Virus record (IMG/VR): IMGVR_UViG_3300044981_000194
Coordinates: 1 to 34,443 of that record
Direction: 5' to 3' (one strand)
From: a virus
Length of the DNA: 34,443 nucleotides
The translations under genes were made by a program, and so were the position numbers. How positions within the stretch are numbered: position 1 is the stretch's first letter; the number at the start of each line of letters is the position of its first letter. Shown here piece after piece: positions 15,449 through 18,593 of the stretch. Under the pieces are notes generated by a model. That model was not told the origin of the DNA. It made no database searches and saw only the letters and a list, made by a program, of their open reading frames with translations.

Positions 15449-15621
15449 CTGGAATGGATAAAGACTATGAAGAATCTTGTTTACTGAGAAAACTTCATGG
15501 CCTGATAATGTCTGAAGAAACAGGCATCGAAAAGACCATGAAGCTCAAGGAACTAGAAGAAGAAGTTAAGTCAGAGTTAATCCGGCTTAATTTATCTTGT
15601 GACCCAAACTCAATAAAGTAG
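15445..15621 (+). CDS. Small acidic coiled-coil protein
   Basis: A protein of 58 residues. It starts inside the previous gene's stop (ATGA). The sequence is charged and helical ([20 protein letters not shown]), so it is probably a coiled coil. Its last 35 bases overlap the 3' end of the cold-shock gene on the opposite strand, so the two transcripts converge. Unrecognised. Confidence 0.62.
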
Positions 15622-15805
15622 CTATTGGTCCCTTGGGAGACTGGGAGGGGGTGAAATGAACCTTGTCACCTTCTTTCAGACTTTTAAATCCTTCCGTCTG
15701 AATTTCCTTGTAATGCACAAAATAATCCTTGCCACCACCTTCTACAAATCCATATCCCTTCTGGTCGTTAAACCATTTAACCGTTCCATTTATCATTTTT
15801 GTCAT
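15587..15805 (-). CDS. Cold-shock-domain protein (CspA family)
   Basis: A protein of 72 residues, the usual length for the family. It aligns with CspA from the start: [20 protein letters not shown], with RNP1-like KGYGFV and RNP2-like DYFVHYK, a five-strand OB fold. These proteins bind single-stranded RNA or DNA and melt RNA structure. The second Met (15796) is an alternative start. It lies downstream of the initiator gene in the same direction. It may help phage mRNA translation, act as an antiterminator, or serve in replication. Csp genes occur in some prophages but are uncommon in P22-like genomes. The C-terminus ([16 protein letters not shown]) diverges from cellular Csps. Confidence 0.92.
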
Positions 15806-15853: not shown

Positions 15854-16123
15854 CTAGACATTTTTTCCAATTCCCCTATACCTTCGCATGGGTAAATCAA
15901 AAGATTGCTTATAGAGCTCCTGAGAGCCTTCTGCGTAATTTGGCATTCCAGCCTCTACCCAGATTTTAACTGAAGTTACCAGAGAGTCGTCTGGTATCAG
16001 TCCATTAACCATATCGTGTTTATCTTCCTCACTCAATAGCCTTGTAGCAATAAGTTTTGGGCTTACTCCAAGCTTTATTCCGAGGGTGAAGAGTTTACGC
16101 TGGCATTCTTGTTTGGTTAGCAT
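15854..16123 (-). CDS. Hypothetical protein overlapping the initiator gene
   Basis: A protein of 89 residues (MLTKQECQRKLFTLGIKLGV...), with GGAG before its ATG. It overlaps the last 29 bases of the initiator gene, so it is probably coupled to it. It occupies the place of lambda P (helicase loader) but is far too short, and I see no P-loop. It is helical in the N-terminal half and basic at the end (FDLPMRRYRGIGKNV). An initiator cofactor is possible. Confidence 0.75.
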   Translation of the reverse strand: MLTKQECQRKLFTLGIKLGVSPKLIATRLLSEEDKHDMVNGLIPDDSLVTSVKIWVEAGMPNYAEGSQELYKQSFDLPMRRYRGIGKNV

Positions 16124-16991
16124 TTTTTGCGCTCCATGCTTTAAATGACAAAGGTTCTTTTCCTTGAACTGATGGTATTTTCAAATAATCACGGTCATTA
16201 AGAAACTGGCTAAAATACAGTTTGTAGTCGTACATCAGTAAATCCGAAGTTTTTTGTACTTCTGTTTTTTTTGGAGAATATTTATCACCACTATCATTTT
16301 TGCCGCCAACCATAAAAACAATGTTCTCGGATTTTAGTTTTTTAAGAAGCTTTACTGCAGCTCCGGCTCTCTGAAGCCTTGGGTAGGATTTTTCGCTGCA
16401 TTCGTCGATGTGTTTCACCACATCTTCCATAAATTCATTATCTGTTCGTGAATCTATTGTAAGCTTTTGATTCAATATGTTCTTATCGGTGGTTTCTGAG
16501 AAAATAAAACTACTACTACTGCAGTTAGTTAGTTTCTTATCTGGATTAGTATCTGGATTAGTATCTGGTATAGGTGTCACCGATCGGTGAAATTGATTTC
16601 TCCATTCGGTGAAATCCATTTCACCGTTTGGTGAAATGGACAAATAAAGGGTTTCAAGGTATTTATCCTTATTCAGGTGGGGGAAATAGTGATAAGCTTT
16701 TGGGGTGAGGGCATACCAAACTGTCCTGTCGTATTTGTTTTTATTATAGTTTCCTCTTATTACCAATCCTTCTTTTACGGCAGTGTTTATGATGCGCTCT
16801 CGTTGTCTCCTGGAAAAATAGGGGAATATGTCTCCCATGGCCTCAAGAGTGTCGTAAGTCCAGCAAAGGCCGTCGTGAATATTTTTTTTGTTAGCGAGAT
16901 TTTTGAAGGTCCAGTGATCCAGATGACCTAAAAACAAGGCAATATAAACAGAAAAATCCTTGGCAAGGTTTACATCGAATGCGTGGTTCAT
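16095..16991 (-). CDS. Replication initiator, lambda O-like winged-helix protein
   Basis: A protein of 298 residues. Residues 1-120 look like a winged-helix replication protein: MNHAFDVNLAKDFSVYIALF, then a recognition region FPYFSRRQRERIINTAVKEG and a wing LVIRGNYNKNKYDRTVWYAL. A linker follows (TPIPDTNPDTNPDKK), encoded by 12-bp tandem repeats. The C-terminal part is helical (DLLMYDYKLYFSQFLNDRDY) and may contact the helicase or its loader. The DNA encoding residues about 118-139 carries five iteron-like repeats, as the lambda O gene carries ori. The promoter of an opposing RNA starts two bases from the ATG. GGAG precedes the start. Confidence 0.75.
   Translation of the reverse strand: MNHAFDVNLAKDFSVYIALFLGHLDHWTFKNLANKKNIHDGLCWTYDTLEAMGDIFPYFSRRQRERIINTAVKEGLVIRGNYNKNKYDRTVWYALTPKAYHYFPHLNKDKYLETLYLSISPNGEMDFTEWRNQFHRSVTPIPDTNPDTNPDKKLTNCSSSSFIFSETTDKNILNQKLTIDSRTDNEFMEDVVKHIDECSEKSYPRLQRAGAAVKLLKKLKSENIVFMVGGKNDSGDKYSPKKTEVQKTSDLLMYDYKLYFSQFLNDRDYLKIPSVQGKEPLSFKAWSAKNANQTRMPA
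16539..16568. repeat. 12-bp tandem repeat inside the initiator gene
   Basis: ATCTGGATTAGT is repeated at 16539 and 16551, with a half copy at 16563. On the minus strand it encodes DTNP-type repeats in the linker. It lies next to an A/T-rich tract and beside the iteron cluster. Confidence 0.8.
16577..16637. repeat. Iteron-like cluster: candidate replication origin
   Basis: Five copies of a CGGTGA(AAT) element lie in 61 bp. There are forward copies at 16585-16593 and 16607-16615 (22 bp apart, two helical turns), a near copy TGGTGAAAT at 16629-16637, and inverse copies at 16577-16582 and 16618-16626. The first two form the perfect palindrome TCACCGATCGGTGA. The cluster lies in the middle of the initiator gene, beside A/T-rich sequence at 16480-16560, as in lambda ori. 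Confidence 0.65.
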
Positions 16992-17005: not shown

Positions 17006-17090
17006 GTTGTGTTCTCGGTGAAAAGAACTATTGTTGTATGGACGCACCCGCTTGCTTGAACAAGCAGGGCTAAGGGCCGGATGCCCTAAA
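17006..17090 (+). ncRNA. Candidate structured RNA opposing the initiator leader (oop-like)
   Basis: From the promoter above, the transcript would contain hairpins GTTCT/AGAAC (17011-17028), GCTTG/CAAGC (17050-17065) and AGGGC/GCCCT (17073-17087). No U-run follows closely, so the 3' end is unclear; read-through would reach the terminator at 17205-17240. It would be antisense to the initiator mRNA leader. The ends are approximate. Confidence 0.4.
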
Positions 17091-18196: not shown

Positions 18197-18421
18197 CTAG
18201 ACCAATTTTAATACGTGCAAGAATATAGGTAGCATCATCCCACCGACAAGCAAGCTTATTATCCAGTTCAATTTGGATTCCAGTTTACAAAATCTTTCAT
18301 GATTAACACCAAAACGTTCTTCATGAACCCTTATTTTAACTTCATGCTCTATATATTGTTCGTTAGTCATCATCCATCCGCCTTTTAATTTTCCGATCAT
18401 ATTCTCAACTTGCGCTTCCAT
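18197..18421 (-). CDS. C-tail-anchored small membrane protein, holin/XhlA-like shape
   Basis: Up to 74 residues, or 57-58 from the internal MMTNEQYIEH start, which has AAGG upstream. A charged helical N-terminal part (EVKIRVHEERFGVNHERFCK) leads into a C-terminal span (WIISLLVGGMMLPIFLHVLK). This shape is common to XhlA-type lysis accessory proteins and to other small phage membrane proteins. It lies beside the Cro-like gene, far from the lysozyme at 25.5 kb. No holin is seen near that lysozyme, so this is a holin candidate. Confidence 0.65.
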   Translation of the reverse strand: MEAQVENMIGKLKGGWMMTNEQYIEHEVKIRVHEERFGVNHERFCKLESKLNWIISLLVGGMMLPIFLHVLKLV

Positions 18422-18593
18422 CGCTCCATTCCGTCTTTAATAATCCGTTAGTAATGCGCTCAAGCTTGTATTGAGCGGCCTCTGGAACGTAACCCCAAGT
18501 CTGCCAATTACGTAGTGTATTCGCAGACATCTTTGTTTGCTTGTGAAAATTATATTTTGTTCTATAAAATTTAATAACATCTTCTGGCGTCAT
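18405..18593 (-). CDS. Cro-like transcriptional regulator
   Basis: A protein of 62 residues (lambda and P22 Cro are 61-66). It opens MTPEDVIKFYRTKYNFHKQT; the turn and second helix KMSANTLRNWQTWGYVPEAA fit the YdaS/P22 Cro type of helix-turn-helix, in which a Tyr/Trp-Gly-xxP motif follows recognition. GAGGGG precedes the ATG. It is divergent from the plus-strand recombination operon, across a 110-bp region with overlapping promoters and a palindromic operator. It probably represses both arms, including its own promoter. No cI-like partner gene exists between the arms. Confidence 0.78.
   Translation of the reverse strand: MTPEDVIKFYRTKYNFHKQTKMSANTLRNWQTWGYVPEAAQYKLERITNGLLKTEWSDGSAS

Follow-up and report, generated by a model that had tools for sequence, protein, structure and literature searches.

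The analysed window, i.e. the whole stretch of 34,443 nucleotides of the IMG/VR record IMGVR_UViG_3300044981_000194, contains a gene predicted to encode a replication initiator. Its genomic surroundings, with a portal, coat and Cro of P22 type, correspond to a P22-like phage. The gene, the relevant parts of its product and the adjoining open reading frame (ORF) are located as follows.

16095..16991, minus strand: replication initiator gene, 298 aa (PHROG 11233 replication initiation protein, E 7.9e-21, residues 3-101)
16692..16991, minus strand: N-terminal winged-helix domain, residues 1-100 (AlphaFold model)
16773..16811, minus strand: predicted recognition helix, residues 61-73 (AlphaFold model)
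16806-16808, minus strand: R62 of the initiator, start of the predicted recognition helix
16797-16799, minus strand: E65 of the initiator, start of the predicted recognition helix
15854..16123, minus strand: ORF of 89 aa overlapping the 3' end of the initiator gene and retained behind it in close relatives

Predicted initiator and its genomic neighbourhood

Further family matches of the initiator were obtained to phrog_6493 (DnaD-like) and phrog_428, and a Pfam search returned no family match. The AlphaFold model of residues 1-100 reaches a pLDDT of about 85-98 per 10-residue block and comprises the elements H15-33, E42-46, H49-55, H61-73, E77-80 and E92-95. The C-terminal part was modelled with low confidence. 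The C-termini vary among the relatives, some of them carrying a Phg_2220_C, DnaB_2 or DnaT-like domain, and the same domain search recognised no domain in the C-terminus of the window initiator.

Homologues of the 89-aa ORF were detected by tblastn in the related contigs L001/L020, L021, L022, L024/L025, L028/L029, L032 and L042/L044, sharing 40-59% identity. No family match was obtained for it in profile searches. The ORF is kept downstream although the C-termini of the initiators differ between relatives, and it is possibly a replication partner of the initiator. No phage helicase or helicase loader adjoining the initiator was recognised among the ORFs scanned.

Just downstream of the replication genes a phage cold-shock-domain protein is predicted (15587-15805, minus strand; PF00313, E 1.8e-22). 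A P22 Cro-like protein (18405-18593, minus strand; E 3.9e-6, below Pfam's cut-off) is located at the point of divergent transcription, from which the rightward genes include those of a Sak4-like annealing protein, an SSB, a Cas4-like exonuclease and a helicase. A perfect 15-bp tandem duplication ACGTCTGGCTAATTC was furthermore detected at 1566-1595.

Iteron array within the initiator gene

Directly behind the region encoding the winged-helix domain, the initiator gene contains an array of iterons followed by AT-rich repeats.

16619..16636, minus strand: iteron unit 1, TTTCACCAAACGGTGAAA in gene sense, 0 mismatches to TTTCACCN4GGTGAAA, gene codon 118 onward
16597..16614, minus strand: iteron unit 2, TTTCACCGAATGGAGAAA in gene sense, 1 mismatch to TTTCACCN4GGTGAAA
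16575..16592, minus strand: iteron unit 3, TTTCACCGATCGGTGACA in gene sense, 1 mismatch, containing a 14-bp perfect palindrome
16536..16574, minus strand: 12-bp AT-rich repeats CCTATACCAGATACTAATCCAGATACTAATCCAGATAAG, candidate unwinding element (Tandem Repeats Finder and conservation in relatives)
16392..16574, minus strand: AT-rich DNA behind the iterons, 34% GC over 183 bp (base composition)

The array (16575-16636) consists of three units of 22 bp, all of them hyphenated palindromes of the form TTTCACC-n4-GGTGAAA, and corresponds to aa 118-139 of the protein, about 355 bp into the coding sequence. Due to the unit spacing of 22 bp its six half-sites follow one another every 11 bp in alternating orientation. 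The array received the top score of Tandem Repeats Finder in the window (73; period 22, 2.8 copies), and the 12-bp repeats CCAGATACTAAT, which lie with the AT-rich DNA immediately downstream of the iterons in the gene, were reported at 16538-16568 with 2.6 copies at 100%.

The repeats had been noticed in the original prediction, and the array proved to be larger than described there. Four of the five copies of CGGTGA or its inverse counted at 16577-16637 are exact (16577, 16585, 16607 and 16621), while the fifth has one mismatch (TGGTGA). The perfect 14-bp palindrome (TCACCGATCGGTGA, 16577-16590), the two direct copies 22 bp apart (TCGGTGAAA at 16584 and 16606), the position inside the coding region just after the winged-helix domain and the adjoining 12-bp tandem repeats and AT-rich DNA were all found as predicted.

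One half-site-like copy, TTTCACCGA (TTTCACC-type, minus strand), is present at 17015-17023, preceding the initiator start codon by about 25-35 bp. It possibly reflects autoregulation, or chance.

Conservation of the array in related phages

Exact matches to TTTCACCN4GGTGAAATN2ATTTC were detected in 14 viral contigs, ten of which carry the iteron in a homologous initiator just behind the winged helix, some of these initiators being only about 26-33% identical overall. The contigs L005, L007, L011 and L013 were rejected as relatives, since all four contain the same unrelated gene, in which only one unit occurs. Since the TTTCACC unit occupies the same place in other phages, the iteron sequence is not unique to the window, which corrects the original prediction of a novel sequence.

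An alignment-query scan of IMG/VR yielded 465 relatives that passed the tblastn check, the best 80 of which were fetched. When up to 3 mismatches were allowed, the initiator ORFs (82.6 kb) contained 106 occurrences of the motif and their flanks (478 kb) contained 22, a count that includes loci fetched by the motif itself; within the initiator ORFs it is always located at aa 84-146. Relatives without TTTCACC carry another palindrome at the same place and spacing (e.g. TTTCCGA, TTTGCCC, TTTCCCC, TTTGACA or TTGTTCA).

Two more scans brought the collection to 148 non-redundant genes, of which 103 could be aligned by a P[IL]P codon anchor that sets the register independently of the repeat search. 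On average, 3.83, 4.28 and 4.47 of 7 pairs are palindromic in these 103 genes at offsets 0, -22 and -44, respectively, against a background of about 1.85, and the between-unit dyads at -11 and -33 show means of 4.13 and 3.82 compared with about 1.85 elsewhere. The consensus unit of the family is TTTGCCC-AAAA-GGGCAAA. The iteron lattice is followed by a near-invariant CCTATACCAGATAnTAA element in about 100 non-redundant relatives (103 aligned), the relatives' consensus after the iteron unit being CCTATACCAGATAnTAAACCAGATAnTAAA. The winged-helix domain, the iterons and the 12-bp element travel together while the C-termini change. The array and its conserved lattice are shown at the sequence level.

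Relatives encoding the same protein without repeats had been named beforehand as a finding that would refute the origin; instead, most relatives were found to keep the lattice, with other arm sequences that follow the recognition helix of the protein. No clear 22-bp array was detected in several relatives, e.g. L002, L003, Staphylococcus P954, phiSP44-1 and phiLdb. Arrays are present in the distant phages BcepMigl, Vibrio 1.247.A, 1.091.O and 1.213.O, Flavobacterium elemoF, Bacteroides B124-14 and BF3-TP1, Listeria FHC174 and Pseudoalteromonas H6/1. The contig L032 (ORF 1-867) contains a mixed array with one TTTCACC unit upstream of three TTTCGGA units, as if a switch of type had been caught part-way.

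Selection at the DNA level

As 22 is not a multiple of 3, the units of the array are read in three frames (SPNGEMD / FTEWRN / FHRSVT), and a repeated peptide therefore cannot explain the array. None of 1000 synonymous-codon shuffles of the window gene reached the array score of 38.0 (mean 24.7, maximum 34.5). In a shuffle scan of 69 genes, comprising 68 non-redundant relatives and lambda O as control, the array exceeded the synonymous shuffles at p<=0.01 in 54. The search for a fixed 22-bp array fails on lambda O, the positive control (p 0.055), because the lambda spacings are uneven, which means that arrays with irregular spacing escape the method; lambda was compared by its annotated iterons instead.

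Conservation at synonymous sites, which had been set beforehand as a test of the prediction, was evident in the two closest relatives (about 60% identical in the domain) when conserved degenerate amino acids were counted. L001 shares identical codons with the window at 17 of 17 positions in the array compared with 24 of 66 in the adjoining upstream domain (Fisher 7e-7), and L021 at 16 of 16 compared with 29 of 67 (Fisher 1e-5). The shuffles and the codon comparisons show that the array is under selection at the DNA level.

The 12-bp element shows a similarly restricted codon usage: Ile is encoded by ATA in 91 of 93 cases (30% in the remainder of these genes), its Pro codon is CCA in 94 of 103 (33% elsewhere) and its Asp codon is GAT in 63 of 63 (59% elsewhere). 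Judging from this codon usage the element is fixed at the DNA level across the relatives, and it presumably represents the unwinding element.

Covariation between half-sites and the recognition helix

Half-sites within one array agree in 4.28 of 7 bases, compared with 3.04 (sd 0.025) when half-sites of the same index are exchanged between genomes, the excess agreement being greatest at half-site positions 2-6. According to this comparison the six half-sites of one array change together between phages. Each protein column was then tested by regression as a predictor of half-site agreement, overall protein identity being included as a covariate. Only column 62 (coefficient 1.50) and column 65 (1.05) exceeded the 95% permutation level of 0.77, and the next column reached 0.38.

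Mutual information relates residue 65 to half-site position 3, with the pairings E-C (11/12), R-G (46/50), K-G (6/6) and Q-T (3/3); E65 goes with TTTC and R65 with TTTG. Residue 62 is related to half-site positions 4-6 (z 10-15), K being paired with CCC, R with AC(A/C), S with nGA, N with TnA and D with GCA. Arginine or lysine opposite G and glutamate opposite C are chemically usual contacts. The window combines R62 and E65 with TTTCACC, while relatives about 60% identical in the domain combine S62/E65 with TTTCCGA, N62/R65 with TTTGTGA, K62/R65 with TATGCCC and H62/E65 with TCTCGGA. Across the aligned genes, half-site variation is thus seen to correlate with residues 62 and 65.

A weaker covariation (z 7.7) was observed between residue 49 (16845-16847 in the window) and half-site position 2, and residue 49 may be a third specificity residue. 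In the model residues 49, 62 and 65 are located at the starts of the helices H49-55 and H61-73, the latter being the predicted recognition helix.

When the half-sites were taken in shifted registers, the correlation dropped from z 14 to background, with isolated values up to 4.9. A few rows are anchored in the wrong register (e.g. L006, L021 and L059), which weakens rather than creates the covariation signal. The residue code was found by exploration and then tested on held-out loci, i.e. loci unused in making the rule, motif-fetched loci being left out. The rule for residue 65 was right in 18 of 28 of these loci (permutation mean 10.5, p 0.0006) and the rule for residue 62 in 15 of 27 (mean 4.2, 0/5000 permutations as high); part of the failures stem from an array read in a wrong register, and the remainder are genuine.

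Independent pairs were drawn from the supported branches of a tree built without columns 62 and 65. In five tests they point in the predicted direction with averages of 4.6, 4.5, 5.4, 2.3 and 4.0, the opposite direction being represented by about 0, and are too few to reach p 0.05 reliably. In the distant named phages the code is right for residue 62 in one of seven cases and for residue 65 in three of five, and is therefore to be taken as a rule within the family.

Comparison with known replication systems

By sequence the window protein and its relatives belong to the PHROG 11233 / 6493 / 428 / 678 initiators (DnaD-like, ‘O-like’): phrog_11233 was matched by 63 of the 63 relatives tested and phrog_678 ‘O-like’ by 49 of them. 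In the open-access papers searched, neither an iteron lattice embedded in the gene nor a specificity code was found described for this group.

The layout of the window resembles lambda ori, in which palindromic iterons lie in the middle of gene O (PMC7466680). In lambda and the lambdoid phages including the Stx phages P27 and 933W (PMC7466680) the iterons likewise occupy the middle of the initiator gene (aa about 116-144 in lambda, aa 118-139 in the window), they form a hyphenated palindrome around an A-rich centre (lambda TCCCTC-AAAAC-GAGGGA, window TTTCACC-AAAC-GGTGAAA), and an AT-rich region is located on their downstream side. However, lambda has four iterons spaced at 20, 24 and 23 bp whereas the window has three at exactly 22 bp, and the AT tract of lambda is replaced by the 12-bp repeat element. 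Moreover, no gene P was recognised beside the window initiator, the adjoining 89-aa ORF being without a family match. An hhalign comparison of the family profile A4 with the single lambda O sequence gave a probability of 0.1% and thus no detectable relationship of the proteins.

A second likeness is to the RepA_N plasmids. In pSK41 the Rep boxes are located centrally in rep and bound by the N-terminal domain, the linker being encoded by ori (PMC5703833); typical RepA_N iterons are semi-palindromic and centred on a poly-A tract (PMC7145576), and covariation of the RepA_N domain with the origin is known from the PLE satellites (PMC8263062). The window family shares with pSK41, pTZ2162 and PLE RepA (PMC5703833, PMC7145576, PMC8263062) a predicted N-terminal winged helix and semi-palindromic iterons converging on a poly-A tract, as seen in its consensus unit. 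The linker in the middle of the pSK41 protein and its C-termini, which differ by host, also count among the likenesses. In contrast to RepA_N, the window family has an invariable lattice of 3 x 22 bp, and its 12-bp element is universal. RepA_N initiators bind the DnaG primase with their C-terminal domain; in the window the model of the C-terminal part is of low confidence.

PF06970 (RepA_N) was listed at E<=0.01 for none of the 63 relatives. The best functional fold matches of the window domain are 4pql and 5kbj with weak E-values of 0.03-0.13; 4pql_A reaches a probability of 1.00, a TM (target) of 0.55 and E 0.032, and generic winged helices score alike. A sequence search against PDB chains gave no useful homology for the initiator. 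The array is best read, by analogy, as working like lambda ori/O and the RepA_N plasmids without detectable sequence membership of either.

The array as a candidate replication origin

Taken together, the array very probably represents the replication origin of a P22-like phage, located inside the initiator gene and bound by the winged helix of the gene's own product. The analysis supports the original prediction in this respect. The residue-to-base covariation argues strongly for a binding of the initiator to the array, and the analogy with lambda and RepA_N suggests that the array functions as an origin. The GC skew changes its sign near 18.7 kb, about 2 kb from the array, and is uninformative on the origin because transcription diverges at this point.

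According to the proposed mechanism the N-terminal winged helix would bind the six half-sites of the three palindromic 22-bp iterons, probably as one dimer per palindrome, and the variable core of the half-sites would be read by residues 62 and 65 in the recognition helix. Once assembled, the initiators would open the AT-rich 12-bp repeats next to the iterons, and the variable C-terminal part may recruit the host or phage helicase machinery.

Alternatively, the initiator may bind the array as an operator or a copy-number handcuffing site, the true origin being located elsewhere. The covariation speaks to recognition only and not to the action of the bound protein, and the half-site-like TTTCACC at 17015-17023, upstream of the initiator start, is what autoregulation would need. 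However, the array lies in the middle of the gene, and in nearly all relatives the near-invariant AT-rich element follows directly after it, which is the layout of lambda ori and RepA_N; this alternative therefore seems unlikely. It appears even less likely that the palindromes act as RNA hairpins in the initiator mRNA, controlling its translation or decay. The array region does fold well as RNA (-33.6 kcal/mol, z -5.0), but so does any palindrome, and hairpins require neither a common arm sequence across three units nor the 22-bp (2 x 11) phase and leave the tracking of recognition-helix residues 62 and 65 unexplained.

The conservation of the peptide SPNGEMDFTEWRN in the closest relatives could suggest that the repeats merely result from a linker peptide that is itself repetitive or conserved. 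This explanation has practically no probability left, being already refuted by the synonymous shuffles and the frozen synonymous codons in the array, in addition to the 22-bp period being read in three different frames. A chance repeat or an assembly artefact is more improbable still and is likewise refuted, as the same array recurs in contigs obtained independently from other samples, L001 and L021 among them. The phage origin bound by its own initiator is thus the preferred reading.

Beyond the window, the winged helix, the 3 x 22-bp iterons and the 12-bp unwinding repeats are likely to form a portable cassette mounted on changeable C-terminal domains. Its specificity would be reset mainly by residues 62 and 65 via a readable residue-to-base code, giving rise to many mutually incompatible replication types.

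The analysis identifies the likely origin for a large and mostly metagenomic group of phage initiators (465 relatives in one IMG/VR scan), in which the origin can be located by rule and the iteron type predicted from the protein sequence by the two-residue code. The group represents a natural experiment on how initiator and origin change partners. Sharing or hijacking of replication among phages, plasmids and satellites would be governed by such replication types, for which PLE and ICP1 provide a known case (PMC8263062).
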